This document shows positions 12,022 to 45,718 of a stretch of 64,000 bases of DNA, piece after piece (positions within the stretch are counted from its first letter, which is position 1; each line of letters starts with the position of its first letter). The DNA lies in assembly GCA_015689645.1 (NCBI GenBank), contig WVSM01000007.1, positions 62,001 through 126,000 of the forward strand, in the 5' to 3' direction. The position numbers were made by a program, and so were the translations under genes. The notes below the pieces were generated by a model. That model was given only the letters and a program-made list of their open reading frames with translations. It did not search any database and had not been told where the DNA came from. Origin of the DNA: Rhodobacterales bacterium HKCCE4037 (lineage in GTDB: Bacteria > Pseudomonadota > Alphaproteobacteria > Rhodobacterales > Rhodobacteraceae).

Positions 12022-12130
12022 GGCGTTTCCGGTTTCCACTGTAACGGGTATCGCCGATGTCCCAAGAACGCCGAAGGCGTGCCAGGGTATCCGTGTCTCG
12101 TGTTCAAGATCGGGCGTTATCGGGTCACGC

Positions 12131-12263: not shown

Positions 12264-12279
12264 GGCGGCAGATCGCGTA

Positions 12280-12309
12280 ACTACAGGATAACTACGGGTT
12301 CACTACGGC
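12280..12309 (+). repeat. 11-bp phased direct repeat ACTAC(A/G)GG, locus 1
   Basis: ACTACAGG, ACTACGGG and ACTACGGC begin at 12280, 12291 and 12302, exactly 11 bp apart, followed by a decayed fourth unit near 12313. The same unit with the same spacing recurs at 52626-52656. Period equals about one helical turn. Confidence 0.65.
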
Positions 12310-12353
12310 TTCCTTACACGGTCGCAATCAGTCATTCGGCATGTCGCAAAGAG

Positions 12354-12373
12354 TCTGGACAGATATGTCCAGA
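12354..12373. promoter_or_regulatory. Perfect inverted repeat upstream of dimethylglycine dehydrogenase gene
   Basis: TCTGGACA-GATA-TGTCCAGA, 8-bp arms, 52 bp before the start codon. The position and symmetry suit an operator for a dimeric regulator; the TetR gene downstream of the enzyme is the nearest candidate. Binding partner not established. Confidence 0.5.
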
Positions 12374-12424
12374 GCTTCCTAATTTCGATCCAGACACCGG
12401 ATTCGCACCCGCAGGAGGCTGCCC

Positions 12425-27400: not shown

Positions 27401-28122
27401 CATGGCGGTGCCCCCGCAACCCATTGTTCGAGGTCGAGCGATACGCCCGTCATCGGCGCGGAGGCCTCCGACAGGAGCCACACCGCCTGCGCCGCGCATT
27501 CCTCCGCCGTCACGAAACGCCCCAGCGGTTGCGCGGCGGCTTGCGCGTCAAGCCACCCCGGCCCCTTTTCGGCGGCATGTAAAGCGGTCTCCGTCTCGGT
27601 CGCGACCCAACCGAGGTTGATCCCGTTTACCCGGATGCGATCCGCCACATGATGCTGCGCGGCGTTCTTCGTGAGCGTCTGCAACCCGCCCTTGGTGCCC
27701 GCATAGATCGCGAGGTCCGGCACGCCGCAATGGGCGTTCATCGACTGGATGTTGACGATGGCGCCCCCTGCCCCGCGCGCTTTCAAATGCCGGATCAACC
27801 CGGACATCAGGAAGAACGGCGCGCGCAGGTTCACTGCAACCAGCGTATCGAACCGGGCGACATCGGCATCCTCGAACGACGCGCGGGTGGTGAGGCCAGC
27901 GGCGTTCACCAGCCCATCGACGCGGCCCGCCTGTGCAATGGCCTCCGACAGGATCCGCTCAGGCGCATCCGGCTCGGACAGATCCGCGACGATCCCGCCG
28001 CAGGGGTCGCGGTCGGTGGGAATGACCTCCGCACCCTGGGCCAACGCGCCCTTCGCAATTGCCGCCCCGATGCCGCGCGCGGCACCGGTCACGACGATCA
28101 CCTTGCCGGTCAGGTCGCTCAT
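27397..28122 (-). CDS. Short-chain dehydrogenase/reductase
   Basis: 241 residues. Classical SDR: VTGAARGIG cofactor loop (about 11-19), LVNAAG, catalytic Ser/Tyr/Lys in IQSMNAHCGVPDLAIYAGTK, and NGINLGWVATET. Coupled by a 4-bp overlap to the desaturase-family gene upstream, so it probably acts on the product of that enzyme. Substrate unknown. It converges with the LacI gene, the two stop codons overlapping in TTAA. Confidence 0.88.
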   Translation of the reverse strand: MSDLTGKVIVVTGAARGIGAAIAKGALAQGAEVIPTDRDPCGGIVADLSEPDAPERILSEAIAQAGRVDGLVNAAGLTTRASFEDADVARFDTLVAVNLRAPFFLMSGLIRHLKARGAGGAIVNIQSMNAHCGVPDLAIYAGTKGGLQTLTKNAAQHHVADRIRVNGINLGWVATETETALHAAEKGPGWLDAQAAAQPLGRFVTAEECAAQAVWLLSEASAPMTGVSLDLEQWVAGAPPC

Positions 28123-29213
28123 TCCGCCGCCGGAACCGCGTCCGCCCCGTGGAATTCCTCGCGATAGGGCCGCGCCGTCGGGGGCAACTCCCGCCGCAAG
28201 TAATAACCCGGCTCGTGCCGCATCCGCCTGAGCGCGCCGATCATCTCGGCATAGGCGTGGTACATCGACGGGTTCGGCGCGGGCAGGTCGTGCTTGATCG
28301 CCTCATGCAGGCGCGGCAGCGCGTGGTAGGGGATCACCGGGAACATGTGATGTTCGACGTGGTAATTCATGTTCCAGTAGATCCAGCGGCTGACCGGGTT
28401 CATCAGAACGGTGCGCGAGTTCAGCCGGTGATCCAGCACGTCCTCGGCCAGTCCGCCATGCTGCAACAGGCCGGTCAGCACCATGTGCCATGTCCCGTAA
28501 ATCCGTGGCCCGCCGATCAGCATCAGCGGCAGAAGCGACCATGTGACCAGTGCCAGCGCGATTGCCGCCAGATGCACCGCCACGAACAGTCGCGCCCAGA
28601 AGATGGCCTTGGGGATCTGGCTTTCGGGGATGTAGCCGCGCTCGGCCTCGTCGGGGCCGTGAATGGCCTGCCGCACAAGGATGCCGAAATGCTGGAACAC
28701 GTCCGGGATGCCGATGAAATGCAGTGCCTTGCGGGCGATGTCGGGCGGGCGCATCACCGCGATTTCCGGGTCGCGCCCGACGATGATCGTATCGGCATGG
28801 TGGCGCATGTGGCTCCACCGCCAGGCCACCGGATTGCGCATCACCATGAAGCTGGCGAGGTTGTAGACCCAGCGGTTCTTCCATTGCGTCAGGAACGCCG
28901 TGCCGTGCCCGCATTCGTGCCAGCGCGAGTCGCAGGCCGAGCCGTAGAGCACCCCGTAGACGAGGAAGAACGGCACCGTCCACCATGTGCCCCATGTCAG
29001 AACGCCACCGACGCCGGTGACGATCAACAGACCGATCCAGATCAGGGTATCGCGGGTCGCGGGCCCGTCACTGCGCTGCATCAGCTCTTTCATCTGCGCG
29101 CGCGGGAGGTCCGAGTGATACCATTTGGCCGAGACTAGGCCCAGTTCCTGGGCCCGCGCGGCCTCCGGCCCGGTCAACGAATAGTCGCGTTTTTCGTAGG
29201 TGTCTTTCGGCAT
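28119..29213 (-). CDS. Fatty-acid desaturase-family membrane di-iron protein
   Basis: 364 residues with four or more hydrophobic helices and the three histidine boxes of membrane di-iron desaturases/hydroxylases: HECGHGT, HMRHHAD and NYHVEHH. These bind two irons on the cytoplasmic side and insert or remove hydrogens using O2. Good ribosome site (GAGGAGAGG) before the ATG. The gene is coupled to an SDR and flanked by two LacI regulators rather than lipid genes, so a small hydroxylated substrate is possible instead of an acyl chain (inference). No ferredoxin or reductase is adjacent. Confidence 0.85.
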   Translation of the reverse strand: MPKDTYEKRDYSLTGPEAARAQELGLVSAKWYHSDLPRAQMKELMQRSDGPATRDTLIWIGLLIVTGVGGVLTWGTWWTVPFFLVYGVLYGSACDSRWHECGHGTAFLTQWKNRWVYNLASFMVMRNPVAWRWSHMRHHADTIIVGRDPEIAVMRPPDIARKALHFIGIPDVFQHFGILVRQAIHGPDEAERGYIPESQIPKAIFWARLFVAVHLAAIALALVTWSLLPLMLIGGPRIYGTWHMVLTGLLQHGGLAEDVLDHRLNSRTVLMNPVSRWIYWNMNYHVEHHMFPVIPYHALPRLHEAIKHDLPAPNPSMYHAYAEMIGALRRMRHEPGYYLRRELPPTARPYREEFHGADAVPAAE

Positions 29214-29332
29214 GGCGTCCTCTCCTCACGCCAAGCCTGAGCGGCGCGCGCGGGCCAAGTCAATCGAGCGGCGGGGGCTTTCGGGGCAATCCGCGCTTGC
29301 ATGGAAAAATCACATCATTTTACATCATCGCC

Positions 29333-30334
29333 ATGCGCCCCACCCTCAAGGATCTTGCCGAGGCGGCCGATGTCTCAACCGCCACCGCCGACCGGGCGCT
29401 GAACAACCGCGCCGGCGTCTCGCCGCGCACCCGCGCCCTTGTTCTGCAGGCGGCGCTGCGCATCGGCTACCTGCCGGAAAAGTCGGTTCCCAAGCCCGTG
29501 CATCTCGTCGTGCTGCTCCCCAAGGGGACCAATGCCTTCGTCGCGGAATTGCGCCGCCACATCGAAGCCCTTTCGCAGTCCGACCCGACGCTCAGTGTGG
29601 CATTCCCCGACCTGTCAGACCCGGCGCCGGAGGCGATGGCCCGCGCGCTCGACCGCGCCGCAGCTGCCGATGGTGTGGCGCTCCTGGCGCAGAGCCATCC
29701 CGCTGTGCATGACGCGATTGATCGCCTGGCACGCTCCGGCACGCCGGTCGTGACGCTCGCGAGCGACCTGCCCGAGAGCAGCCGCCTCGCCTATGTCGGG
29801 ATCGACGACCGCCGCGCGGGGCGGCTGGCTGGGCAAGTGATCCTGCGGTTCCTCGGACCATCGGCCAAGGGCAAGATCGCCCTGTTCTCGGGGTCGCAGA
29901 GCTATCGCGGCCACCACGACCGCGAGATGGGATTGCGCCAGATCGTCGCCGAGAGTGCCCCGAACCTGACCGTGCTGGGGCGGCTTGAAAGCGGCGAGAA
30001 CCGCAACCAGGCGCAGGCGCTCACGGAAGAGCTTCTGGCCACCCATCCCGACCTCGTGGCGGTCTACAACGCGGGCGGCGGCACACGTGGGATCGCCCGC
30101 GCCCTTCAGGCATCGGGTCGGGCGCGTGATATCGTGTTCGTCGCCCATGACCTGACCGAGCCGAACCGCGCCCACCTGATCGACGGCACGCTCGACGCGG
30201 TCATCGACCAATCCGCGCGGGACGAAGCGCAGGAGGCGCTGGCGATCCTGACGGCCGCCGCACGGGGCGAACATCACGACCCTGCACCCCCCCAGCATTC
30301 CCTGCTGTTCCTGCGGGAGAACCTGCCGCCTTGA
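29333..30334 (+). CDS. LacI-family transcriptional regulator
   Basis: 333 residues. HTH RPTLKDLAEAADVSTATADR near residues 2-21, where the usual VSRAL reads ADRAL, a variant in the recognition helix. The sensor domain is type I (SVPKPVHLVVLLPKG, YVGIDDRRAGRLAG). ATG 29333 is preferred over an upstream TTG at 29297, which would cover a 10-bp spaced direct repeat ACATCAT at 29312 and 29322. It diverges from the desaturase-SDR operon, which it probably controls. Its stop region overlaps an FNR-like box for the next gene. Confidence 0.86.
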   Translation: MRPTLKDLAEAADVSTATADRALNNRAGVSPRTRALVLQAALRIGYLPEKSVPKPVHLVVLLPKGTNAFVAELRRHIEALSQSDPTLSVAFPDLSDPAPEAMARALDRAAAADGVALLAQSHPAVHDAIDRLARSGTPVVTLASDLPESSRLAYVGIDDRRAGRLAGQVILRFLGPSAKGKIALFSGSQSYRGHHDREMGLRQIVAESAPNLTVLGRLESGENRNQAQALTEELLATHPDLVAVYNAGGGTRGIARALQASGRARDIVFVAHDLTEPNRAHLIDGTLDAVIDQSARDEAQEALAILTAAARGEHHDPAPPQHSLLFLRENLPP

Positions 30335-30702: not shown

Positions 30703-31656
30703 CTAGACGCGCAGCCCGCAGCTTTCAAACGCCGCGCGCGTCGCCTCTTTCTCCGCATCGGTCAGGTCCAGCATCGGCGCGCGCACGCCGCCGCCGACCT
30801 GCCCCAGCAACTCCTGCCAGTATTTCCCATGGGCCTGCGGCTTGTCCGCCGGTTTCGTCCGCTTGATCGCCTCGCGCACCGGGTCGAGGCTGTCGCGCAC
30901 CGCGCGCGCCTCGTCGAACCGCCCCTCGAACGCCAGCCGCGTATATTCATTCATCCGCTGATCGACTTTCGACTGAAGCTGATACGGTGGCGAGGAACAG
31001 AGGTAGAGCGTCCAGCCCAACTCCTCGATGTTGTCGAGCCATTCCGCCTCGGACGCTGTGGAGACGTGGATCCTGTCGCCCGCCAGCCGGGTCAGTTCCA
31101 CGTACATCGGGCGGGGCACGGAATACTTGATCGCCACGATATTCGGCAGCTCCGCGATCCGCGCGCAAAGCTCCGGGCTCATCAGGTAGCCGCTGTCCGG
31201 ATGGCTCCACATCGCGATGCCGATGTCCACGCGCTCGCACAGCGCCTTATAATACTGGTAGAGGATCTCGTCGGGATGGCTGACGAAATGCAGAACCGGG
31301 GCGTGAACGACGATGTAATCGGCCCCGCAATCCTGCGCATGCTGCGCCAGTTCGACCACCACGTCGAAATTCTGGTCGCTGGCCGAGAAGATCGTGCCCG
31401 CCGCGCCGTTGCATTCGTCGACCGCGACCTCGATGTTGCGCTTCCGCTCCTCAAGCGACATGGCGAAGAACTCGCCCTGCTTGCCCGCGATGAACAGGCC
31501 CGCGATGCCGAGGTCGTCGACCCAGTGCCGGATGTTGGCGCGGAACCCTTCCTCGTTGAAGGCGCCGTCCGGATGCCATGGGTTCAGGCAGGCAGCCCAG
31601 ATCCCGCGCATGTGTTCCTTCGCGTGTTCCTTCGCGTCGAGGCGGCTGTATTTCAT
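30703..31656 (-). CDS. Dihydrodipicolinate synthase (DapA) family lyase of the aromatic island
   Basis: 317 residues. Schiff-base lysine in IVAIKYSVP (Lys177) and pyruvate loop GKQGEFF (58-64). The DapA tyrosine motif is replaced by MWSHPDSG, so it is not a lysine-biosynthesis enzyme. Hydratase-aldolases that split ring-cleavage products of aromatic compounds belong to this superfamily, a role that would suit the setting (inference). ATG 31656 has AAGGA 7 nt upstream and overlaps the stop of the molybdenum hydroxylase gene by 4 bp. Confidence 0.83.
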   Translation of the reverse strand: MKYSRLDAKEHAKEHMRGIWAACLNPWHPDGAFNEEGFRANIRHWVDDLGIAGLFIAGKQGEFFAMSLEERKRNIEVAVDECNGAAGTIFSASDQNFDVVVELAQHAQDCGADYIVVHAPVLHFVSHPDEILYQYYKALCERVDIGIAMWSHPDSGYLMSPELCARIAELPNIVAIKYSVPRPMYVELTRLAGDRIHVSTASEAEWLDNIEELGWTLYLCSSPPYQLQSKVDQRMNEYTRLAFEGRFDEARAVRDSLDPVREAIKRTKPADKPQAHGKYWQELLGQVGGGVRAPMLDLTDAEKEATRAAFESCGLRV

Positions 31657-33746
31657 GGTTTTTCCTTCTCTGCGGCTTGCAGGGCCGTCCATATTTTCGA
31701 GGGCGTCAGCGGCATGTCGAGGTGGTCAATGCCCACAGGCGCCAAGGCATCCATGACCGCGTTCAGGATCGCGGCGGGCGCGCCGATCGTCCCGGCCTCG
31801 CCCACGCCTTTCACCCCGAGTGCATTCATGGCCGTGGGCGTCTCGGTTTTGTAGAGGGCAAGCGAAGGCAAGTCGGTGGCCCGCGGCAACGCGTAATCCA
31901 TCAGCGATCCGGTCAGCAATTGCCCGTCGCCATAGACCACCTGTTCCATCAACGCCTCGCCGAAGCCCTGGGCAAAGCCGCCACGGATCTGCCCCTCGAC
32001 GAAGGCCGGGTTCACCATGCGCCCCGCATCGTCGAGGCAGGTCACATGGGACAGCGTCGGAACCCCGGTCTCCCGGTCGATCTGCACCGCCACGACGTAG
32101 ACGCCGAAGCCCCATGCTTGCCCCTCGTTCTCGTAGCGCACCGCCTCGGTGATCGGCAGCGCGTCGCCGCGCAATTGGCGCGCCCTCACCCGCTCCGCCG
32201 CGGAAAAGACCGCGCTTCCGCCGATGGCCGTCCCGCGCGAAGCCAGCGCGCCGATCCCATCGGGGCAAGTGGCAGTGTCGCCATGGGTCACGTCGATCAG
32301 GTCCAGCGGAATATCGAACACCTCGGCCGCGATCTGCGCGTAGGCGGTCTCGCGCGCCTGCCCCTGGCTGGACGATCCGCTGGCGATGTCCACGCGCCCG
32401 TTCGCGCCAAGCGTCACCCGGGCACTCTCGAAGCCATCGCCCGACGGTTCGAGGTAGAGGGCCACGCCGACACCGGACAATAGCCCGTCCGCCCGCGCCG
32501 CGTCGCGCTGTTCCAGAAGATCGACGTAGCCCGACAGTTTCGACGCCTGGAACAGCGCCGCCGGGTAATCGCCGGTATCGAGCAGCGCGCCTGTCGGGCT
32601 GCGCACCGGCAAGGCACCGGACGGATGGCTGTTGAGAACACGCAGTTCCATCTCGCAGCGTCCCAGCGCATCGGCGGCCCTGGCCACCAGACGCTCCATC
32701 AGGCAGGCGGCCTCCGGGCGACCGGCCCCGCGGTAGATGCCCATCGGGGCCTCCGCGATGGGCACTCCGCGGGTCTCGATGTCCACGGTGTCGATCTGGT
32801 AGGGCCCCGGCAGGATGCGCGCCGCGTTCCATGGCGGGATCAGCGCGGAATTGGGCAACCATGCGCCCGTGGGCGCCTCGATCCGCGCCTCCAACGCAAG
32901 AAACCGCCCATCCGCCGCAACAGCCAGCCGTCCCCGGGTCAGCAGCCCGCGGCCCTGGGTTGCGGCCAGCATGTCCTCGCTGCGCGTGGCGATCCAGCGG
33001 ACCGACCGACGATGGTGCTGCGCGGCCCAGACCGCGAAGACCTCTTCCGGGTAGACCGAGCCTTTCATGCCGAAGGCTCCGCCCACGTCCGGCGCAATTA
33101 CCCGCAGGTGCGCCGAGTCGATCCCCAGGATGCCGGCGAAGGCGTCGCGCGCGCGGTGCGGTGTCTGTGTCGACAGCCAGATCGTCAGCCCGTCCTCCGC
33201 CCATTCCACCGCGATGCCCCGCGTCTCCATCGGCGCGGGGAACAGGCGCGGGTGGCGGATCGTGGCCTCGATGACATGGTCGGCCTTGGCAAAAGCCGCG
33301 TCGGGATCGCCCGTGCGCCACGATTTCTCCGCGATTGGTGCGGGGTCGTCAGGGGCCACCACGTCTTCGACGTCCAGTCCGATCGCTTCCAGCCCATCGA
33401 GCGCAGCCGCCTGCGTTTCAGCCAGAACCGCAGCCAGCGGTTGACCAAGCGCCCCGATCCGTTCTTGTGCAAGAATGGGGAACTCAGGTGCATCCCGAAG
33501 GGGCAACACTTCCTTCACGTCGAGCGCCTTGATCTGGGAAATATCCTCCGCCCGGTGCACGGCCCGCACGCCGGGCTGCTTCAGAGCCTCATCAAACTCA
33601 AGCGAGCGCATCACGCCGGAGACCACCGGCGCCCGCAGGAACGCGATGTGCAAGGGATCACGCAACGCAACGTCCGCCACGAAACACCCCTGCCCTTTCA
33701 GCCGGGTCGCGGCGCGGCGGTCGACCGGGCTTGCCCCGATCTGCAT
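31653..33746 (-). CDS. Xanthine dehydrogenase/aldehyde oxidase-family molybdenum hydroxylase, large subunit only
   Basis: 697 residues from ATG 33746 (GAGGG 5 nt upstream); ATG 33764 is an alternative. Domains: aldehyde oxidase a/b hammerhead (about 10-120) and molybdopterin-binding region (about 135-690). Visible motifs are GGAFGMKGS, IYRGAGRPEAA (form II CoxL-like) and, near the C-terminus, KGVGEAGTIGAP with the catalytic glutamate. Such subunits hydroxylate heteroaromatic rings or aldehydes using water. They normally need a 2Fe-2S subunit and an FAD subunit, and neither is present in the window. Coupled to the DapA-family gene. Confidence 0.87.
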   Translation of the reverse strand: MQIGASPVDRRAATRLKGQGCFVADVALRDPLHIAFLRAPVVSGVMRSLEFDEALKQPGVRAVHRAEDISQIKALDVKEVLPLRDAPEFPILAQERIGALGQPLAAVLAETQAAALDGLEAIGLDVEDVVAPDDPAPIAEKSWRTGDPDAAFAKADHVIEATIRHPRLFPAPMETRGIAVEWAEDGLTIWLSTQTPHRARDAFAGILGIDSAHLRVIAPDVGGAFGMKGSVYPEEVFAVWAAQHHRRSVRWIATRSEDMLAATQGRGLLTRGRLAVAADGRFLALEARIEAPTGAWLPNSALIPPWNAARILPGPYQIDTVDIETRGVPIAEAPMGIYRGAGRPEAACLMERLVARAADALGRCEMELRVLNSHPSGALPVRSPTGALLDTGDYPAALFQASKLSGYVDLLEQRDAARADGLLSGVGVALYLEPSGDGFESARVTLGANGRVDIASGSSSQGQARETAYAQIAAEVFDIPLDLIDVTHGDTATCPDGIGALASRGTAIGGSAVFSAAERVRARQLRGDALPITEAVRYENEGQAWGFGVYVVAVQIDRETGVPTLSHVTCLDDAGRMVNPAFVEGQIRGGFAQGFGEALMEQVVYGDGQLLTGSLMDYALPRATDLPSLALYKTETPTAMNALGVKGVGEAGTIGAPAAILNAVMDALAPVGIDHLDMPLTPSKIWTALQAAEKEKP

Positions 33747-33817
33747 TTTTCCCTCGTCAGACATACCGGCTTTGTCCCACGCGTCCGCCCCTCCCGGAAG
33801 CTGCACTTGCGTCGCCT

Positions 33818-33838
33818 GATATCCGTATTGTGGATACC
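33818..33838. promoter_or_regulatory. LysR-type box between molybdenum hydroxylase and aspartate dehydrogenase-like genes
   Basis: Dyad TATCC-N7-GGATA containing T-N11-A. A site matching at 17 of 21 positions, in opposite orientation, lies at 39167-39187 upstream of the 3-hydroxyanthranilate dioxygenase gene. It sits 49 bp before the plus-strand gene start. Probably bound by the LysR protein encoded at 34650. Confidence 0.65.
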
Positions 33839-33886
33839 CGGAAGATTTGATGTAAAGAAAACAGCATAGCCGCAAAAGGATAGACC

Positions 33887-34648
33887 ATGCGACTCGGCAT
33901 TATCGGAAAAGGCGCCATTGCGGGCTACGTGACCGCAGCGATCGCAAAACAGCCCGGCGTGACCCTGGCTGGCCGGGTCCTGCGCCAGGCGGATGGGGAT
34001 GCCGTGGCCGACGTCGCCGATCTTCCGCCTGTCGACCTGCTGATCGACTGCGCGGGCCATGCCGGGTTGGCGCAGCACGGGGCGACGGCGCTGGCGCTCG
34101 GGGTCGACGTTCTGACCCTGTCGCTCGGCGCGCTGGCAGATGAGGATCTGGAACACGCCCTGGCACGGGCCGCCCGAGACGGCGGGGCACAACTGCACCT
34201 CGCCTCCGGTGCCATCGGCGCGCTCGATGCGTTGCGGGCCGGGGCCGTGGGCGGGCTTTCGAATGTCACCTACACCGGCCGCAAGCCCCCGGCAGGCTGG
34301 CGCGGATCACCGGCGGAAACGGCCCTTGACCTCGACGGCTTGACCGATGCCGCCGTTCATTTCACAGGCACCGCCCGCGCCGCCGCCCTGGCCTATCCGA
34401 AGAACGCCAATGTCGCCGCCGCCGTGGCGCTGGCGGGCGCGGGCTTCGATGACACGCAGGTCGCGCTGATCGCCGACCCCGCCGCCAGCGGCAACACCCA
34501 CGAGATCATCGCCGAGGGCGCGTTCGGCAGCCTGTCCTTCCGCCTCACCGGCAACAGCCTGCCCGACAATCCACGCTCCTCCGCCCTTGCCGCCATGTCT
34601 GCCGTCGCGGCGATCCGTCAGGCTTCCGCGCCGATCCGGTTCGCCTGA
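33887..34648 (+). CDS. Aspartate dehydrogenase (NadX)-like oxidoreductase
   Basis: 253 residues. Rossmann start RLGIIGKGAIAGYV and the family-specific AYPKNANVAAAVALAGAGFD plus VALIADP segments of L-aspartate dehydrogenases. These interconvert L-aspartate and iminoaspartate/oxaloacetate with NAD(P)H and can feed quinolinate synthesis. Placed with a 3-hydroxyanthranilate dioxygenase and ring-attacking oxygenases, it may instead act on an amino acid released by the pathway (inference). Preceded by AAAGGA; the LysR gene begins one base after its stop. Confidence 0.8.
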   Translation: MRLGIIGKGAIAGYVTAAIAKQPGVTLAGRVLRQADGDAVADVADLPPVDLLIDCAGHAGLAQHGATALALGVDVLTLSLGALADEDLEHALARAARDGGAQLHLASGAIGALDALRAGAVGGLSNVTYTGRKPPAGWRGSPAETALDLDGLTDAAVHFTGTARAAALAYPKNANVAAAVALAGAGFDDTQVALIADPAASGNTHEIIAEGAFGSLSFRLTGNSLPDNPRSSALAAMSAVAAIRQASAPIRFA

Positions 34649-34649
34649 G

Positions 34650-35588
34650 ATGGGGCGGCTCTACAATCGCGCGCTGAACCGCCTGAAGCTCCGCCAGCTC
34701 AGCCTGCTGGTCGCCGTCGGTCGCCTCGGCAACATCCAGGCCGCCGCGCAGGCCGAGAACATCAGCCAGCCCGCCGCCACCCGCATGATCAAGGAGCTGG
34801 AGGCCGATTTCGACACGCTCCTGTTCGACCGCACCAATCGTGGCGCGATCCCGACCCCGCAGGGCGAGGCGCTGATCCGCCATGCGCAACTGATCTTCGC
34901 GCAATTGTCCAACGCGGCGCAGGAGGTGGAGGACATCACCGGCGGCAGCGCGGGTCGTGTCGTCGTCGGAACGCTCCTGGCCGGCGCGGCCGAGCTTGTG
35001 CCGCGCGCCATCCGGCACGTACTGGCGACTCGCCCGAACGTGCAGATCCGCGTGGTGGAAGGCACCAACGACGCCCTCATGCCGCGCGTCCAGACCGGTG
35101 AGATCGACATGGTGGTGGGCCGCCTGCCCCATCACCGCCACCGTCGCGGACTGGTTCAGGTGCCCCTGTCGACCGACGAGATCATCCTTGCCGTCGGTCA
35201 GTCGCACCCGCTGGCCGGGCAGAGCGCGCTGACCTTCGACGATCTCCGGCCCTTCGGCTGGGTGCTGCCGCCCTCCGAGACCACGCTGCGCCGCCAGATC
35301 GAGGAATTGTTCGTCGAACAGGGTCAATACCAGCCCGCTCAGGTGGTGGAGAGCGTGCATTACCTTGCGAACCGCGCGCTTCTGGCCTCCAGCGACCTGA
35401 TCGGCGTCGCGCCACGCGCGGTCGCGGCCCATGACGTGGCGATGAAGGTGCTTGCGCCGCTGGACTACGCCCTTCCCTTCGGTTCGGGTCCGCTTGGCGT
35501 CACCCATCGCGGCGCGGATCGGCTGTCGCCCGCCGCGCGCCTGTTCCTGTCCGCCCTGCAGGACGTCGCCGCCCCCGTCAGCCGATAA
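34650..35588 (+). CDS. LysR-family transcriptional regulator of the aromatic island
   Basis: 312 residues. N-terminal winged HTH (LKLRQLSLLVAVGRLGNIQA, SQPAATRMIKELE) and LysR substrate domain (RVVVGTLLAGAAELVP, EIDMVVGRLP), closest in style to the GbpR/galactose-binding group. Start at 34650, directly after the aspartate dehydrogenase-like stop; a longer frame from 34587 is not supported. It is the only regulator in the block, and two matching T-N11-A dyads lie upstream of the divergent oxidoreductase pair and the dioxygenase-TRAP genes. Its 3' end overlaps the DctM gene by 11 bp on the opposite strand. Confidence 0.9.
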   Translation: MGRLYNRALNRLKLRQLSLLVAVGRLGNIQAAAQAENISQPAATRMIKELEADFDTLLFDRTNRGAIPTPQGEALIRHAQLIFAQLSNAAQEVEDITGGSAGRVVVGTLLAGAAELVPRAIRHVLATRPNVQIRVVEGTNDALMPRVQTGEIDMVVGRLPHHRHRRGLVQVPLSTDEIILAVGQSHPLAGQSALTFDDLRPFGWVLPPSETTLRRQIEELFVEQGQYQPAQVVESVHYLANRALLASSDLIGVAPRAVAAHDVAMKVLAPLDYALPFGSGPLGVTHRGADRLSPAARLFLSALQDVAAPVSR

Positions 35589-36840
35589 GCGCCGTCGACA
35601 GGATCGGCGCATAGCTCAGCAGGATCAGCACCAGCGCCACGGCGATCAGGAACGGCCAGAGCTGGCGCAGGATCCGGCCCGTCGGCGTCTCGCCCATGGC
35701 GCTCGCGATGTAGAGGCCCACACCCACCGGCGGTGTCAGCAGACCGAGGACGAGGTTCAGCGAGATCACCACGCCGAACTGGTAGGGGCTGATGTCGTAG
35801 CTTTCGATGGCGATGGGCAGCAGGATCGGCGTCACCAGGATGATCGCGGCGATCCCGTCGATGACCATGCCGACGAACAGCAGGACCACGTTGACGATCA
35901 GAAGGAACAGGAACGGGTTCTCGGTGATCGTGGTGATGAAGGCCGCAAGCCTTTGCGGCACCGCCTCGTAGATGATGACCCATCCGAACACGTTCGCCGC
36001 CGCGATCATGAAGATGATCAGCGCCGCGTTCAGCGCCGTGCGCTTGAACATATCGAACAGCTTTTTCGGGTCCAACTCCCGGTAAAGCGCCCACCCCAGC
36101 ACAAATGCCACCACGCTCGCCACGGCGGCGCTTTCGGTCGGCGACGCGACGCCGCCCAGGATCCCGCCGATGATCGCCGCCGGGATCAGCATCGCCGGCA
36201 GCGCGTAAAGCAGCGCCTTCCCGGCCTCGGAGGCCGCCATCCAGTCGCCCTTGGGGAATTGCTGTTTCAGCCCGATCAGCGCGATCACCAGCGCGAAACA
36301 GACCGACAGGATCAGCCCTGGAATGATGCCCGCAAGGAACATGTCGCCGATGGGGATCTGCGCCAGGACGCCGTAGATCACGAACAGCATCGAGGGCGGG
36401 ATCACCGGCGCAAGAAGCCCGCCCGCCGCCGTCGTCGCCGCCGCGAATCCCCGGTCGTAGCCCTCCTCCTCCATCGCCGGCACCATGGCCCGGCTCATCA
36501 CCGCGATCTGCGCGGCGGCCGATCCGACGATGGCGGCCATGAACATGTTGGCCAGCAGGTTGATATAGGCCAGCCCGCCCCGGAACCCGCCCACGAAGAC
36601 ACGCGCCGCGTTGATCAGGCGGCGCGTCATGCCGCCCTCGTTCATCAATTCGCCGGTCAGCATGAACAACGGGATCGCCAGCAGTCCGTAGGATTCTATC
36701 CCCGAGAACATCCGCTGCGCGAAACTGTCGTAGAGGATCGTGTTGTCACTCTCCCAGATGTACCACATCGCCGTCAGGGCGAGGACAATGGCCACCGGAA
36801 CCGAAAGCAGCAGCTTGGTGAAGAAGATGACCGGGGTCAT
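35578..36840 (-). CDS. TRAP transporter large permease (DctM)
   Basis: 420 residues, about a dozen hydrophobic helices, normal DctM length. Typical sequences include LLAIPLFMLTGELM, IVGSAAAQIAVMSRAMVPAM, PVIPPSMLFVIYG and LGLLTPPVGVGLYIAS. Drives Na+/H+-coupled uptake of an organic anion delivered by the DctP protein. ATG 36840 lies within the DctQ stop; the longer frame to 37062 is a DctQ shadow. Confidence 0.93.
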   Translation of the reverse strand: MTPVIFFTKLLLSVPVAIVLALTAMWYIWESDNTILYDSFAQRMFSGIESYGLLAIPLFMLTGELMNEGGMTRRLINAARVFVGGFRGGLAYINLLANMFMAAIVGSAAAQIAVMSRAMVPAMEEEGYDRGFAAATTAAGGLLAPVIPPSMLFVIYGVLAQIPIGDMFLAGIIPGLILSVCFALVIALIGLKQQFPKGDWMAASEAGKALLYALPAMLIPAAIIGGILGGVASPTESAAVASVVAFVLGWALYRELDPKKLFDMFKRTALNAALIIFMIAAANVFGWVIIYEAVPQRLAAFITTITENPFLFLLIVNVVLLFVGMVIDGIAAIILVTPILLPIAIESYDISPYQFGVVISLNLVLGLLTPPVGVGLYIASAMGETPTGRILRQLWPFLIAVALVLILLSYAPILSTALIG

Positions 36841-37385
36841 GTCGCGACCTCCGGGCCGTGGCGCTCGGGCGGGGTGAAGTTCAGCAGATGCGCCGTGGCA
36901 TGCAGCAGCACGCCGAACGAGAAGACCGGCATCATCAGCCAGATGATCCACTTCGGAATGCCAAGCGTGCTGGTCGGCTCCGCGTAGATGAAGTTGAAGG
37001 TTGAACCCTGGAACGCCATCACGTCCCAGCCCGCCTGCGCCAGGGCCAAGGGGTTGAACCACCGCCAGCAGAACCAGACCATCGCGGCGGCGAAGACGAA
37101 GATCGCCACGTCCACCAGTTTCGCCGCCACCCTCTGAAGCCCGGCGGGCAAGGCATCGGTCAGGATCGTGATCGCCACCTGTTGCCGCATCTGTATCGCG
37201 GCGGACGCGCCGAAGAAGGTCATCCAGACCATCGTGTAGACCGCCGCTTCATCCACCCAGTAGATCGGCGCACCCGCCGTGCGGGTCACCACGTTCAGGA
37301 GGATCAGAAGCGTCACCCCCACCGCCAGCAAGGCGGCCAGGGCCAATTCGATCCGGGCCCAAACCCTCGAGATACGGCTCAACAT
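36837..37385 (-). CDS. TRAP transporter small permease (DctQ)
   Basis: 182 residues with four predicted membrane helices (ALAALLAVGVTLLILLNVVT, MVWMTFFGASAAIQM, VAIFVFAAAMVWFCW, WIIWLMMPVFSFGVLLHA). Partner of DctM. ATG 37385 has GGTGG 5 nt upstream; GTG 37394 is the alternative. Confidence 0.9.
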   Translation of the reverse strand: MLSRISRVWARIELALAALLAVGVTLLILLNVVTRTAGAPIYWVDEAAVYTMVWMTFFGASAAIQMRQQVAITILTDALPAGLQRVAAKLVDVAIFVFAAAMVWFCWRWFNPLALAQAGWDVMAFQGSTFNFIYAEPTSTLGIPKWIIWLMMPVFSFGVLLHATAHLLNFTPPERHGPEVAT

Positions 37386-37404
37386 CGCGTCCACCCAAAC
37401 GAAA

Positions 37405-37428
37405 CCCGGGCACCCTCGGGCGCCCGGG
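37405..37428 (-). terminator. Intercistronic stem-loop between DctP and DctQ
   Basis: CCCGGGC and GCCCGGG arms (7 bp) separated by about 10 nt, directly after the binding-protein gene. Likely an attenuator or mRNA stabiliser giving excess DctP over the membrane subunits. Confidence 0.55.
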
Positions 37429-37448
37429 CCATGTCCTGTCCTAGATCG

Positions 37449-39185
<1,737 letters not shown>

Positions 39186-39187
<2 letters not shown>

Positions 39188-40532
39188 AGAGCGTACTGAA
39201 ATACTCCGCCTGCTCCCAATCCGAGATATGGGCAAGGTAGCGGTTCCATTCGTGTCGCTTGAGCGTGACGAGCCATTCATGCACCTCAGGCGTCAGCGCG
39301 TCGCGCAGCATGTCGGAGGCTGCGAAGGCCTCGATGGCTTCGCCCAGGGACGCTGGCAAAGCCTCGCCGGGATCGTCGTAGGGATTGGCCATCGGCGGGC
39401 GCAGCTGGGTGCGGCGATGGCGCGGAGCCCACCCGGCAAGCAATTGACCGGCCAGCGCAAGATATGGATTGGCCGAGCTGTCGGGGAGGCGGTTTTCGAG
39501 CCGCAGGGTTCCATCCGGCCCCGTGATCGTCCGGATCATGGCGCCACGATTGTCTCCGGACCATCCGATCCGGTTCGGTGCCAGCTGGTAGGCCGAAAAG
39601 CGTTTGTAGCTGTTCACGGTCGGGTTCGTCAGAAGACAGGTCGCACGCGCATGGGTGAGAAGGCTTTCGATGACGCCATTGGATTCGGGCGTGTATTCAG
39701 CATCGACGCCGACCCCGAAATTCCGTCCCTCCAGAGCGTAGCTTTGATGAATGTGCCATCCGTTCGCTACGGCGTTGGGAAGCGCGGGCTTGGGCATGAA
39801 GCTCGCGAGCATCCCGTGGCGGTGGCTCAGTTCCTTGGCCAGCATGCGGAAATTCACCGCCTGTTCGGCGACCTTCGACGGGCGGCCCGGCGCGAACGTG
39901 ACCTCGTATTGCGATGGCCCCATCTCGATTTCGACCGAGCGGATGTCGATCCCGAACTCCTCCGCACCGCGCCGCAGGCGGTCGAGCATCGGCTCGACCT
40001 CCGCGTAGCGGGTTTCGGTCAGGTACTGGTAGCCCTGGGTCGTGTTCCCGACCTGCGGCGGCGCGCCGGGCATGCCCGATTGCCCGGGGGCCAGAGCTGC
40101 GTCCAGAACCCGGAAGACCTGGAATTCGATCTCCACGCCCATCGTGGCCTCCCACTGCCCGCCAAGCGCATGCTCCTCCGCCCGGCGCAGGATCGCGCGC
40201 GAACAGAAAGGGCTCTCGACATCGCAATGGACCATCGCCGAATGCGGCGACCACGGGATCACCCTGAACGTTTCGGGATCGGGCCGCAGGGTCACGTCCG
40301 ACGCCCCCTGCATCGGCGCGCCCTCCCCTGCCCAGACCGGGAAAGCCGTGCGATGAGACAGGTCTTTCAGAAGCAGGGTCGACGGCACCTTTAGCCCATC
40401 GCGCAACACGCCTGGAAGCGCGGTTGCCGTCACCGTCTTGCCGCGCAGGATCCCATGCGGATCGGTGAAGACGACGCGGATCGTCTCGATCCCCTCCGCC
40501 TCGACCCGCTTGAGAATTTCCTCAATACTCAA
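39186..40532 (-). CDS. Glutamine synthetase-family ligase
   Basis: 448 residues. ATP-dependent carboxylate-amine ligase fold with a short beta-grasp N-terminus (IETIRVVFTDPHGILRGKTV) and catalytic-barrel motifs GVEIEFQVF, EIEMGPSQYEVTFAP, NGWHIHQS, NPTVNSYKRF and RLENRLPDSSANPYLALAG. It lacks the length and tail of housekeeping GlnA, so it is a side-branch member, such as those that gamma-glutamylate amines. It starts at a TTG inside the TGA stop of the Rieske gene, so the two are co-translated. Glutamylation of an aromatic or alkyl amine before or after oxygenation is inferred. Confidence 0.85.
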
Positions 40533-41842
40533 ACGCTTGCATCCCAGGGACAGCTATCGCGACGCTCGCGGTCAGCGGCAAGCGACGCCGCCTGCCAATC
40601 CGCATCCGGCGCGATGGCATCGTTCGACAGCGGCCCCCGGATCGCCTCGGTCCCGCCGTTCTGCATCTTCAGCCCGCTCGCCTCGCCCTCTTCCACCGCC
40701 TTGATCGCGGCCCGCAGCATGCGGCGATACTTGATGATGCCGACATCCGTCTTGCCCAGGTGCTCCTGCCGCCGATCCTGGATGCGACCCATCGATTCCA
40801 CCGCCCACTGGTCATGCACGTTGATGTCGAGGCCCATGCCCGTGTAGGTCTCCCGCGCCTGTTCGTCGGCATTGTAGCCGTAATTGTTGCGGGCGTTCTT
40901 CAACGGCGCGTAATCGGGCAGCCGATGCTCGGCCAGCCTCTGGTCGCGCATCGTGGCCTTGTCGACCGGCGTCTTGAAGCTGGTGAACATCGAATACCAG
41001 TAGCAGGTCTCGTCATCGACGGGCACATGCCATTGGGTGATGGTCATCTCTCTGCTCATCGGAATGCAGATCGCCTGCGGGAAGATCTGGTTGGTCACGC
41101 GCACATGGGTGCGCCCGTCGTCGAGATGGCGAAGCGCGGTCAGCTTCAACCCGTAATCGGTTTCATCGACCATGATCTCGGGCCGAGGGTAATCCCTCAA
41201 AAGCTTCGTCATCGGCATCTCGGTATTGCCGGCCTTGTCGCGGAACTGCTTGCCGTAGCTCTCCGCCGGGTCCTCGTCCTGCAGGAACCGGTGCAGGAAA
41301 CTCGCATGGGCCGGGTCGATGCCCACTTCCATCGCCTGCAGCCAGTTGCATTCCCACAGGCCCTTGAAGGCAAACACATGGCTCTCGGGCGCGCGGAAAC
41401 AGTCGAACTGCGCCATCGGCGGCGGGTCGCCCTCGCCCATGTAGGCCCAGATGATGCCGTTCACCTCGCGCACCGGGTAGCTGACCGCCTTGATCTGCTC
41501 ATGCATGCGCGAGCCTTCGGGCTCCCCCGGCTGCTCGACGCATTGCCCGGTGCAGTCGAAATGCCAGCCGTGGAACGGGCAGCGCAGACCGTTGTCCTCC
41601 AGCCGACCATAGGCAAGGTCCGCGCCGCGATGGGGGCAATGCCGCCCGATCAGGCCGAGCGTGCCGCTCTCGTCGCGGAACAGCACCAGCCGTTCCCCCA
41701 GCAGCGTCACCGGCACCACGGGCCGCGCGCCCATCAATTCGTCGCTCAGCGCGGCGGGCTGCCAATACTGGCGCAACACCCGCCCCGCGCCGGTGCCCGG
41801 CCCGATACGGGTGATCTGGTCGTTCATCTCCTGGCTCATCAT
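40529..41842 (-). CDS. Rieske non-heme iron oxygenase, alpha subunit
   Basis: 437 residues. Rieske 2Fe-2S site CPHRGADLAYG...CPFHGWHFD (about residues 70-95) and mononuclear iron site GIDPAHASFLHRFL with a C-terminal catalytic domain like phthalate 4,5-dioxygenase and related aryl or N-demethylating oxygenases. No beta subunit, ferredoxin or reductase is adjacent, so electrons come from elsewhere. ATG 41842 has GGGAGG 9 nt upstream; later ATGs at 41839 and 41827 are possible. First gene of the minus-strand run Rieske-ligase-dioxygenase-TRAP, with overlapping stop/start to the ligase. Confidence 0.88.
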   Translation of the reverse strand: MMSQEMNDQITRIGPGTGAGRVLRQYWQPAALSDELMGARPVVPVTLLGERLVLFRDESGTLGLIGRHCPHRGADLAYGRLEDNGLRCPFHGWHFDCTGQCVEQPGEPEGSRMHEQIKAVSYPVREVNGIIWAYMGEGDPPPMAQFDCFRAPESHVFAFKGLWECNWLQAMEVGIDPAHASFLHRFLQDEDPAESYGKQFRDKAGNTEMPMTKLLRDYPRPEIMVDETDYGLKLTALRHLDDGRTHVRVTNQIFPQAICIPMSREMTITQWHVPVDDETCYWYSMFTSFKTPVDKATMRDQRLAEHRLPDYAPLKNARNNYGYNADEQARETYTGMGLDINVHDQWAVESMGRIQDRRQEHLGKTDVGIIKYRRMLRAAIKAVEEGEASGLKMQNGGTEAIRGPLSNDAIAPDADWQAASLAADRERRDSCPWDASV

Positions 41843-42050: not shown

Positions 42051-44852
42051 ATGGCACAACCGGAACTGAACCTGTCCCCCAAGGTCTCGGACGAGGTGCG
42101 CAAGACGACCTGCTACATGTGCGCCTGCCGCTGCGGCATCAACGTGCACATGAAGGACGGCCCCGACGGCAAGAAACGCGTCGCCTATATCGAGGGCAAC
42201 CGTGACCACCCGGTCAACAAGGGCGTCCTATGCGCCAAGGGCTCGGCCGGGATCATGCAGGTCAACGCCCCCTCGCGCCTGCGCGCGCCCCTGAAACGGG
42301 TGGGTGAACGCGGCTCCGGCGAATTCGAGGAGATCAGCTGGGACGAGGCCTATGCCATCGCCGAAGGCTGGCTCCGCCCGATACGCGAGACCGACCCGTC
42401 GAAACTCGCCTTCTTCACCGGGCGCGACCAGTCGCAGTCCTTCACCTCCTTCTGGGCGCAGAATTTCGGCACGCCCAATTACGCGGCCCACGGCGGCTTC
42501 TGCTCGGTCAACATGGCCGCCGCAGGCATCTACACGATGGGCGGCGCCTTCTGGGAATTCGGTCAACCCGATTGGGACCACACGAAGCTCTTCCTGCTCT
42601 TCGGCGTGGCCGAGGATCACGACAGCAATCCGATCAAGATGGGCCTTGGCAAGATCAAGGCGCGGGGCGCGAAGGTCATCGGCGTGAACCCGATCCGCTC
42701 CGGCTACAACGCGATTGCCGACGAATGGGTTGGCATCACGCCCGGCACCGATGGTCTTTTCATCCTGAGCCTCGTGCATTGCCTGATGAAGGCCGGCAGG
42801 ATCGACCTCGACTACCTTGCGCGCTGGACCAACGCGCCGGTGCTCGTGGACAAGGACACCGGCCTGATCCTGCGCGACGGTGACGGCAAGGAATTGGTGA
42901 TCGACCGCGTGACGGGGGAACCCACCGCCTTCGACAAACCCGGCGTCCGCCCCGACCTGTCGGCAACCCACCCCGACGGCCACAAACCCGTTCTGCACCT
43001 GATGGCCGAACGGTATCTCTCCGACGACTACGCCCCCGAAGCCGTGGCCGGGCGCTGCGGCATCCCCGCCCCCCGCATCCGCGCCATCGCCTCCGAGCTT
43101 GCCCGCGTCGCCTTCGAGGAAAGCTTCGAGCTTCCGATCAAATGGACGGATTTCCGTGGCGAAACCCACGAGACCATGACCGCACGGCCCGTCTCCATGC
43201 ACGCGATGCGGGGCATCTCGGCCCATGCCAATGGCTTCCAGACCTGCCGCGCCCTGCATGTTCTCCAGATCCTCCTCGGCACGGTCGAGGCCCCCGGCGG
43301 TTTCCGCTTCAAACCGCCCTACCCCAAACCGTCCAGGATCCACCCCAAGCCCCATTGCAAGGTCACCCCCGGCGAACCGCTCGACGGCCCGCACCTCGGC
43401 TTCGTGCATGGCCCCGAAGACCTCGCCCTGCGCGAAGACGGCAGCCCGGCGCGCATCGACAAGGCTTATACCTGGGAAAATCCCATGAGCGCCCACGGCC
43501 TCATGCACATGGTGATCTCAAACGCCCATGCGGGCGATCCCTACAAGATCGACACGCTCTTCATGTACATGGCCAACATGTCGTGGAATTCGTCGATGAA
43601 CACGACCGGCACGATGAAGATGCTGACGGACAAGGACGAGAACGGCGATTACGTCATCCCGCACATCATCTATTCCGATGCCTATTCCTCCGAGATGGTC
43701 GCCTATGCCGACCTGATCCTGCCCGACACGACATACCTCGAACGCCACGATTGCATTTCGCTGCTCGACCGCCCGATCTGCGAGGCCGACGCCGCCGCCG
43801 ACGCGATCCGCTGGCCGGTGGTGGAACCCGACCGCGACGTGAAAGGTTTCCAGTCCGCCCTCTGCGACCTCGGCGCGCGGCTCGGGCTTCCCGGCTTCGT
43901 GAACGAGGATGGCAGCCAGCGCTACGCCGATTACGGCGATTACATCACCAACCACATCCGCCGCCCCGGCATCGGCCCGCTGGCCGGATGGCGCGGCAAT
44001 GGCGAGAGCCACGGGCGCGGCGAGGCCAACCCCAACCAGATCGACCGCTACATCGAGAATGGCGGCTTCTTCGTCGCCCACATCCCCGAGGGCGCGGAAT
44101 ACATGAAACCATGGAATGCCGCCTACCAGGATTGGGCGGTGGAAATTGGCCTCTACGATACCGTCCAGCCCTACCTCTTCACCCTCTACGTCGAGCCGAT
44201 GCAGAAGTTCCGCCGCGCCGCCGAGGGCCACGGCCCGATCCAGCCGCCCGACCACCTGCGCGACCAGGTGGCGCGGAACATGGACCCGCTCCCGTTCTGG
44301 TCCGATCCCGCCCCCGCGAACCTCGCCGCCGATTACCCCATCACCGCGCTCACCCAGCGCCCGATGGCGATGTATCACTCCTGGGGCAGCCAGAACGCAT
44401 GGCTGCGCCAGCTCCACGGCCACAACCCGCTCTACGTGCCTACGAAGCTGATGCGCGACCACGGGCTCAAGGACGGCGACTGGGCCCGCGTCACCTCCCG
44501 CCATGGCGAGATCACCGTGCCCGTCATGGAAATGGCCGCGCTGAACGAGAACACCGTCTGGACATGGAACGCCATCGGCAAGCGCAAGGGCGCCTGGGCG
44601 CTCGACAAGGACGCGCCAGAGGCCACGAAGGGCTTCCTCCTCAACCACTTGATCCACGAGCTTCTGCCCTCGAAAGGCGACGGCCACCGCTGGTCCAATT
44701 CCGATCCGATCACCGGCCAGGCCGCCTGGTTCGACCTCAAGGTCCGCCTCGAGAAAGTCCCTGCCCCGGCAGAGAGCAAACCCAGCCTTCCCCCGATCAA
44801 ATCCCCCGTCGGCAAAGGCCCGAAAGACCTCGCCTGGAAGGTGGGCCAATGA
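42051..44852 (+). CDS. soeA: Membrane-bound sulfite dehydrogenase (quinone), molybdopterin subunit
   Basis: 933 residues, DMSO reductase family. N-terminal 4Fe-4S site Cys21-x2-Cys24-x3-Cys28 with Cys61, then the molybdopterin guanine dinucleotide domains, including a C-terminal dinucleotide-binding barrel (about 760-900). No Tat signal, matching the cytoplasm-facing SoeA. The N-terminus and the SoeA-SoeB-SoeC order match the SoeABC sulfite-oxidising complex of Rhodobacteraceae and phototrophic sulfur oxidisers. It oxidises sulfite to sulfate and passes electrons via SoeB and SoeC to quinone. A GGGGAGGGG ribosome site precedes the ATG. Another substrate of this family cannot be excluded. Confidence 0.87.
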   Translation: MAQPELNLSPKVSDEVRKTTCYMCACRCGINVHMKDGPDGKKRVAYIEGNRDHPVNKGVLCAKGSAGIMQVNAPSRLRAPLKRVGERGSGEFEEISWDEAYAIAEGWLRPIRETDPSKLAFFTGRDQSQSFTSFWAQNFGTPNYAAHGGFCSVNMAAAGIYTMGGAFWEFGQPDWDHTKLFLLFGVAEDHDSNPIKMGLGKIKARGAKVIGVNPIRSGYNAIADEWVGITPGTDGLFILSLVHCLMKAGRIDLDYLARWTNAPVLVDKDTGLILRDGDGKELVIDRVTGEPTAFDKPGVRPDLSATHPDGHKPVLHLMAERYLSDDYAPEAVAGRCGIPAPRIRAIASELARVAFEESFELPIKWTDFRGETHETMTARPVSMHAMRGISAHANGFQTCRALHVLQILLGTVEAPGGFRFKPPYPKPSRIHPKPHCKVTPGEPLDGPHLGFVHGPEDLALREDGSPARIDKAYTWENPMSAHGLMHMVISNAHAGDPYKIDTLFMYMANMSWNSSMNTTGTMKMLTDKDENGDYVIPHIIYSDAYSSEMVAYADLILPDTTYLERHDCISLLDRPICEADAAADAIRWPVVEPDRDVKGFQSALCDLGARLGLPGFVNEDGSQRYADYGDYITNHIRRPGIGPLAGWRGNGESHGRGEANPNQIDRYIENGGFFVAHIPEGAEYMKPWNAAYQDWAVEIGLYDTVQPYLFTLYVEPMQKFRRAAEGHGPIQPPDHLRDQVARNMDPLPFWSDPAPANLAADYPITALTQRPMAMYHSWGSQNAWLRQLHGHNPLYVPTKLMRDHGLKDGDWARVTSRHGEITVPVMEMAALNENTVWTWNAIGKRKGAWALDKDAPEATKGFLLNHLIHELLPSKGDGHRWSNSDPITGQAAWFDLKVRLEKVPAPAESKPSLPPIKSPVGKGPKDLAWKVGQ

Positions 44853-44952
44853 CCCTCCCGTGTCTCGCGCACGCCCCTCTTTGTTCCATGAAAATGCCGC
44901 GGGGTCCGGGGGGCTGGCCCCTCGCTCCCGCCCTCTCCGCCAGGCCAACCGC

Positions 44953-45717: not shown

Positions 45718-45718
45718 C

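Follow-up and report, generated by a model that had tools for sequence, protein, structure and literature searches.

Introduction

The classical route for 3-hydroxyanthranilate (3-HAA), a hub of tryptophan breakdown, is the 2-aminomuconate pathway, which comprises 3-hydroxyanthranilate 3,4-dioxygenase (HAO), the decarboxylase (ACMSD) of 2-amino-3-carboxymuconate 6-semialdehyde (ACMS), AMSDH and a Rid-type deaminase. Here we describe a gene block from Rhodobacterales bacterium HKCCE4037 (GCA_015689645.1, contig WVSM01000007.1, positions 62,001–126,000 of the forward strand; this whole stretch of 64,000 nt is referred to as the window). The window sits in a 3.84-Mb genome which belongs to, or is labelled as, the genus Roseicyclus. 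The core of the block shares HAO with the classical route and, in some relatives, the upstream genes for tryptophan 2,3-dioxygenase (TDO), a KMO-like enzyme and kynureninase. It differs in possessing a molybdenum hydroxylase (MoOx) or another aldehyde dehydrogenase (ALDH), a DapA-clade lyase and, mostly, an aspartate dehydrogenase (AspDH) in place of ACMSD, AMSDH and the Rid deaminase.

Individual genes of the block resemble parts of other described systems. The NahE-type hydratase-aldolases of the DapA/NAL superfamily carry out hydration and retro-aldol cleavage; like the DapA clade they possess the fold and the Schiff-base lysine of dihydrodipicolinate synthase (DHDPS), and for the clade this reaction type is only proposed. 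The clade differs from DHDPS and the hydratase-aldolases in having Lys-Gln and Trp for Thr-Thr and Tyr, and in its proposed substrate, an amino-tricarboxylate. Molybdenum hydroxylases of the CoxL/quinoline-oxidoreductase type share their domains and catalytic Glu with the MoOx of the window, which by contrast lacks an adjacent small or FAD subunit gene and swaps with an NAD-aldehyde dehydrogenase. SadABD of Hydrogenophaga and Novosphingobium, like the window, combines an adjacent Rieske alpha subunit and glutamine synthetase (GS)-like ligase. The sadA and sadB genes of Hydrogenophaga specify 4-aminobenzenesulfonate 3,4-dioxygenase and a glutamine synthetase, and SadAB is described as a deamination step (PMC5632844); GS-like enzymes of this type gamma-glutamylate aryl amines (PMC11335346).

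We consider that the core very likely acts on the HAO product, and that it is rather probably an alternative lower pathway for 3-HAA that lacks the usual ACMS decarboxylation. No description of such a pathway was found in titles and abstract openings of the open literature, a scope that leaves aside most subscription journals and bioRxiv preprints.

Co-occurrence of HAO and the DapA-family lyase

The core consists of HAO, a DapA-family lyase, an aldehyde-oxidising enzyme and, usually, AspDH, an importer and a LysR regulator. Its distribution was followed in 390 genomes of the order, 384 genomes of the class, and a GTDB set made up of the best 80 of at least 547 confirmed DapA-clade relatives, which overlaps some of the order genomes. 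HAO was present in 54 of the 390 order genomes and the DapA clade in 54, and these are the identical 54 genomes. Forty-five of them were fetched around the genes, the remaining nine (G129, G249, G288, G295, G331, G333, G360, G367 and G374) being assessed by match coordinates only. The two genes lie on the same contig within ~13.3 kb in 51 of the 54 genomes (in G121 by way of a second DapA copy), and on different contigs in G103, G128 and G233. Among the class genomes HAO was found in 36 and the DapA clade in 23, with 22 shared and 14 carrying HAO alone. Fisher tests, in which kinship is ignored, place the co-occurrence far beyond chance (2e-25 in the class sample). The best 80 GTDB relatives include Rhodobacterales, metagenome-assembled genomes of Woeseiaceae and other Gammaproteobacteria, Roseibium, Maritalea, Kiloniellaceae and others.

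The first-pass annotation had proposed a catabolic block for an aminoaromatic acid, recurrent in Rhodobacteraceae-type genomes and distinct from the standard aminomuconate route, and this part of its interpretation is supported. Routine splitting of the block across genomes, which it had named as evidence to the contrary, is seen for the Rieske/GS pair (see below) and not for the core, whose HAO and DapA genes remain neighbours.

The HAO and DapA-clade proteins

The annotation of the window protein as a genuine HAO holds: it passes TIGR03037 and NF009763, its residues 6–171 align with the solved HAO 1yfu, and the positions which we take to bind the iron and the substrate and to form the four-Cys site are all kept, being at least 97% conserved across 71 aligned HAOs.

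The DapA-clade enzyme is ~25% identical to the best solved DHDPS. Its AlphaFold model (mean pLDDT 87.5) has the DHDPS fold, with a best match of TM 0.79 by query and 0.89 by target. In an alignment of 18 sequences Met13 is near-invariant and Lys189, which aligns with the Schiff-base lysine of solved DHDPS, is invariant (18/18). Since the Thr-Thr and Tyr positions of DHDPS, presumably catalytic, are lost, the clade enzyme is no dihydrodipicolinate synthase; the window protein also fails TIGR00674 (67.3 bits against a cut-off of 206.15).

As a control, one of the 14 class genomes with HAO alone (G571) was examined. Here ACMSD (405 bits to 2hbv), AMSDH (TIGR03216, above cut-off) and a Rid protein adjoin HAO. 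When this ACMSD was used as a tblastn query, nothing above 50 bits was found in 145 core loci, the window included; one query each was used for decarboxylase and Rid, so that distant types may escape. Eight PF04909 amidohydrolase places in the genome of the window (L239–L246) were compared with the G571 ACMSD, the best giving 87 bits at 29% identity (L244) and the next 48; the NCBIfam scan is uninformative on this point, as it names nothing for the genuine G571 ACMSD either. The ALDH of core loci is ~30–35% identical to the G571 AMSDH. As far as looked at, HAO is accompanied by either the classical set or the DapA set. The reported lack of kynureninase, ACMSD and aminomuconate genes in the block was likewise upheld, the window containing no kynureninase above 150 bits and no ACMSD or Rid-type protein above 50 bits.

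The DapA clade could instead be a substitute decarboxylase, removing the C3 carboxyl through a Schiff base to give 2-aminomuconate or 4-oxalocrotonate, which would then enter the known 2-aminomuconate route. Decarboxylating members of the DapA family exist (KdgD); the clade retains the Schiff-base lysine, the window protein is weakly KdgD-like (79.9 bits against a cut-off of 374), and the DapA loci lack the ACMSD that adjoins HAO in G571. Moreover, contig C1 of the genome of the window carries an AMSDH-like ALDH (64% identical to the G571 AMSDH) near a 4-oxalocrotonate-decarboxylase-like gene (210 bits, under cut-off), and one core locus, L254, contains a Rid protein. We nevertheless think this explanation unlikely, because none of the 145 core loci matches the 4-oxalocrotonate-decarboxylase-like protein above 50 bits and only one has the Rid protein (again with a single query each), TIGR03218 gave no match in three of ten core-bearing genomes (G007, G079 and G244) and 19.9 bits in G069, its cut-off never being passed, and AspDH would be left without a role.

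Proposed aldehyde oxidation

The aldehyde-oxidising enzyme of the core exists in two forms. These were counted by tblastn, MoOx being scored above 150 bits within 6 kb of DapA and ALDH at 60% identity or more anywhere in the stretch. The 37 order loci divide into 14 with MoOx and 23 with ALDH, none having both or neither. The 80 GTDB loci comprise 38 with MoOx, 38 with ALDH, none with both and four with neither, in all four of which DapA lies less than 900 bases from the contig end. MoOx was found in 17 of the 19 class loci and ALDH in none; two have neither, one of them at a contig end. In the genus itself MoOx is present at 9/9 loci and ALDH at 0/9. Under a looser check the ALDH loci were without any MoOx match and the MoOx loci without an ALDH-type match of 45% identity; ALDH loci then number 40 rather than 38 of the 80 GTDB loci. 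The ALDH gene is sometimes distant from DapA, lying ~10 kb off and adjoining HAO in three order loci. A quickly built tree of 134 DapA proteins, of which 128 could be scored, shows at least five switches of state; it was made without a branch-support test. Since MoOx and ALDH replace each other, and ring cleavage by HAO yields an aldehyde, the simplest reading is that both perform one same step, the oxidation of that aldehyde.

The best solved matches of MoOx are CoxL/CutL, 6-hydroxypseudooxynicotine dehydrogenase and quinoline 2-oxidoreductase. It possesses the catalytic Glu and the Mo-cofactor domains of the xanthine-oxidase family; Glu693 (ORF numbering), which we take to be the catalytic residue, is shared by at least 97% of the 52 sequences aligned. 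Four small-subunit domains were located in the genome of the window. Two adjoin large subunits (L234 and L235) and two are in long ORFs (L230 and L232), which we read, without a family test, as fused proteins, so that there is no orphan small subunit among the four. MoOx may borrow its partner subunit from another locus.

Hydroxylation of picolinate or quinolinate by MoOx was considered and rejected as the principal explanation, given that the enzyme found in place of MoOx is an aldehyde dehydrogenase rather than a further hydroxylase.

Upstream genes and NAD synthesis

A group of GTDB loci, mostly Gammaproteobacterial, contains HAO, kynureninase, a KMO-like FAD monooxygenase, tryptophan 2,3-dioxygenase, ALDH, AspDH and DapA in variably complete sets. 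Among the 80 GTDB loci kynureninase occurs in 23, the KMO-like gene in 19 and tryptophan dioxygenase in 15 (TIGR03036, 383.1 bits against a cut-off of 390.7); kynureninase is also found in 8 of the 37 order loci. The label KMO-like is our own reading from context and size, the best NCBIfam match being VioC, under cut-off. In the genome of the window TDO and kynureninase genes are adjacent on another contig, C1. It is because of these adjoining tryptophan/kynurenine genes in relatives, and of TDO and kynureninase in the same genome, that the core is read as a lower route for 3-HAA itself.

Quinolinate synthesis employs both HAO and NadX, and the locus could therefore serve NAD supply: ACMS formed by HAO would close to quinolinate, AspDH would give iminoaspartate to NadA, and the other genes would drain surplus ACMS. 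NadA lies beside HAO in five of the 80 GTDB loci, all Gammaproteobacterial (L181, at 167–1189, L184, L189, L193 and L195); three of the five also contain an NrtR-like gene, which scores 63.6 bits against NF050029, under cut-off. This arrangement fits NAD synthesis and is a possible link that counts against a purely catabolic core. On the other side, the loci of the order (37), class (19) and genus (9) gave no NadA match above 50 bits, the importer, regulator and kynurenine genes suit catabolism, and the near-absolute link to DapA has no role in NAD synthesis. We regard this explanation as improbable.

Aspartate dehydrogenase, regulator and importer

AspDH was present in the fetched stretch of 31 of the 37 order loci, 59 of the 80 GTDB loci, 4 of the 19 class loci and 7 of the 9 Roseicyclus loci. 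It is absent at many loci and hence cannot be a step that every locus requires; a gene that is frequent yet non-universal suits a helper step. Control by LysR, as first annotated, was only partly sustained, the regulator gene being at the site in six of the nine Roseicyclus genomes and missing there in three. Within the genus the two genes are lost singly at the site: L040, L043 and L073 have AspDH and no LysR match, and L042 and L044 have LysR and no AspDH match.

Six core loci (L114, L115, L116, L140, L144 and L146) have no TRAP match and contain genes for a branched-chain-type ABC transporter in the stretch, which probably replaces the TRAP importer. The substrate-binding protein of this transporter is present in five of the six, one of which was scanned.

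Proposed pathway

The TRAP system would probably import the aminobenzoate. In the first step HAO opens the ring of 3-HAA to give ACMS, an assignment strongly supported by family and residues. The aldehyde would then be oxidised by MoOx in the window and by the NAD-aldehyde dehydrogenase in relatives, as the gene replacement suggests, the likely product being 2-amino-3-carboxymuconate formed without prior decarboxylation. This compound can be viewed as the enamine/imine of a 2-oxo acid with a C3 carboxyl, i.e., a beta-substituted iminoaspartate. Its family, its phyletic linkage and the chemistry required suggest that the DapA-clade enzyme may, through its Schiff-base lysine, exchange or hydrolyse the enamine, hydrate C4=C5 and cut C3–C4 by a retro-aldol reaction, with oxaloacetate or iminoaspartate as the C4 product and malonate semialdehyde as the C3 product. 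AspDH could finally convert oxaloacetate and ammonia, or iminoaspartate, to aspartate. The carbon would balance as C7 = C4 + C3, with no CO2 released. Alternatively, cleavage could come first, with malondialdehyde oxidised afterwards. We put forward this chemistry of oxidation, hydratase-aldolase cleavage and aspartate formation tentatively. Equally tentative is the wider proposal of a widespread marine tryptophan/3-HAA pathway in which a DapA-clade enzyme splits 2-amino-3-carboxymuconate, all seven carbons and the nitrogen are kept, and a solitary MoOx large subunit is interchangeable with ALDH.

Several observations weigh against this pathway. One class genome, G611, carries DapA without HAO, and HAO is in the fetched flank of just 33 of 37 order, 51 of 80 GTDB and 12 of 19 class loci, partly because contigs end. 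AspDH is missing beside the core in two of the nine Roseicyclus and 15 of the 19 class loci. Class locus L248 has neither MoOx nor ALDH despite flanks of 3 kb and 10 kb, and MoOx has no [2Fe-2S] small or FAD partner subunit alongside. In the DapA clade Lys71-Gln72 replaces Thr-Thr and Trp162 replaces Tyr, which makes its reaction type uncertain; its best 60 solved matches listed include none that bears the name hydratase-aldolase. The genome of the window has no KMO-like match at E 1e-10, and a Rid protein (144 bits) does occur at core locus L254 (1/145 core loci). No malonate-semialdehyde gene was recognised in the block, the only part of the genome in which one was sought, and the whole of the chemistry is read from genes.

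The Rieske/GS module

A strong Rieske relative was defined as one of at least 69% identity, in one or two pieces. Such matches were found in 43 of the 390 order genomes (nine Roseicyclus and 34 others), nine further genomes having weak ones, and 15–20 kb were fetched for eight Roseicyclus and 32 of the 34 others. In all nine Roseicyclus genomes, the window included, the Rieske/GS pair is joined to the core, the block being whole save for AspDH or LysR in some. Outside the genus, 31 of the 32 Rieske loci have no HAO in 15–20 kb; G124 (L058) alone has HAO, MoOx, DapA and TRAP genes nearby. A GS-like match occurs in the stretch of 31 of these 32 loci. The pair can thus no longer be counted as part of the core, as had first been supposed. 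The single block originally described is real and recurrent and is actually two modules, the core and the Rieske/GS pair, with the LysR gene sometimes outside.

Six of 127 plasmids with a Rieske match were examined. A GS-family gene lies within ~2 kb of the Rieske gene in 6/6, and a 2Fe-2S protein and an FAD oxidoreductase within ~7 kb in 5/6; in the sixth an FAD oxidoreductase and a flavodoxin are near the Rieske gene. A glutamine-amidotransferase-type gene is present on two of the six. The window Rieske and GS-like proteins are 58.8% and 39% identical, respectively, to the pair on plasmid pSA3 of the sulfanilate-degrading Novosphingobium resinovorum SA1, where the Rieske gene is a candidate for the sad gene of that strain. 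Unlike SadABD, the ten scanned window proteins include no ferredoxin or reductase, the further neighbours being judged from ORFs only. By analogy, Rieske/GS may be read as a separate SadAB-like module in which an aryl amine would be gamma-glutamylated and then dioxygenated. The plasmid pairs, the 31 of 32 loci without HAO and the likeness to SadAB lead us to read it as a portable aryl-amine module, passenger or partner, set ahead of the HAO–TRAP gene run in Roseicyclus.

The first-pass annotation had combined all ten genes into one pathway that would act on an imported acid, N-heteroaromatic or aminoaromatic, with Rieske/GS making the substrate of HAO. The Rieske, GS, HAO and TRAP genes are indeed co-directional in 9/9 Roseicyclus genomes, with a 4-base overlap of Rieske and GS in the window, and in G124 the pair is linked to the core again in a different arrangement. 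With TDO and kynureninase and no KMO-like match, the genome of the window would also make anthranilate, the 3-hydroxylating step being missing. Set against this are the Rieske loci outside the genus without a nearby HAO, and the deamination ascribed to SadAB (PMC5632844), whereas HAO requires the amino group. Nothing for homarine, picolinate or quinolinate was noticed in the block, where no gene search was aimed at them, and listings of the open literature revealed no homarine gene cluster with these genes. A single ten-gene pathway thus seems very doubtful to us, and the portable-module reading is retained.

The Rieske gene is in one piece with both motifs in 41 of the 47 examined loci. In all six split loci (L032, at 11962–13632, and L068–L072) the alpha-subunit relative retains the mononuclear-iron motif but no longer carries the [2Fe-2S] ligand motif, which is intact in a homologous Rieske domain specified by a small gene of its own alongside. 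It would be unusual for a Rieske cluster to be provided in trans to a homologous subunit that has none itself.

The gene block and its neighbours

Profile scans verified that all ten genes first annotated are open and in their assigned families (Table 1). MoOx and DapA, like the Rieske and GS-like genes, overlap by 4 bases when the refined starts are used. The order of the core genes is maintained in the window and eight other Roseicyclus genomes, with AspDH gone in two and LysR in three at the site.

Table 1. Genes of the block in the window.
Product	Position	Strand	Remarks
DapA-family lyase, proposed hydratase-aldolase of the ring-cleavage product	30703..31656	-	PF00701, 106 bits; Met13 start of 329-aa ORF
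Molybdenum hydroxylase (MoOx) large subunit, proposed aldehyde oxidase	31653..33764	-	PF02738, PF20256; start guessed in ORF 31653-33875
Aspartate dehydrogenase (AspDH, NadX-like)	33887..34648	+	NF009828, 321 bits, cut-off 177
LysR regulator, PcaQ-like	34650..35588	+	Start Met22 of ORF opening at 34587; TIGR02424, 206.6 bits, under cut-off 303.8
TRAP large permease DctM	35578..36840	-	TIGR00786, 374.6 bits, above cut-off
TRAP small permease DctQ	36837..37394	-	PF04290
TRAP solute-binding protein DctP	37449..38432	-	NF037995, 154.7 bits, above cut-off
HAO (3-hydroxyanthranilate 3,4-dioxygenase), ring cleavage	38550..39092	-	TIGR03037, 263.9 bits, cut-off 145.95; NF009763, above cut-off
Glutamine synthetase-like ligase (SadB/GoaS-like), second module	39186..40532	-	PF00120
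Rieske oxygenase alpha subunit (SadA-like), second module	40529..41842	-	PF00355, PF19301; LigXa-like C-terminal domain

Beyond the Rieske gene and divergent from it (window positions 42051–46591), reading of the ORFs revealed a large molybdopterin oxidoreductase, a 4Fe-4S protein and a DmsC-like membrane protein; the large oxidoreductase was matched in 8/8 Roseicyclus stretches. On the other side (26369–30334) a LacI regulator, an SDR, a fatty-acid-desaturase-like gene and a second LacI-type regulator adjoin the core throughout the genus, one LacI match being missing in L044. Related LacI and desaturase genes occur at one core locus outside Roseicyclus, L118.

Conclusions

Family models presently give just "dihydrodipicolinate synthetase family" and "aspartate dehydrogenase" for these genes. 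It is unusual in itself for MoOx and an NAD-aldehyde dehydrogenase to interchange at a single step of a pathway. If the proposed pathway is true, the DapA family would gain a new reaction, and the pathway offers single-gene predictions that are directly testable. Given a lower route independent of ACMSD in Rhodobacterales and Woeseiaceae-type bacteria, marine genomes would also have to be read differently for the use of tryptophan and aminobenzoate.

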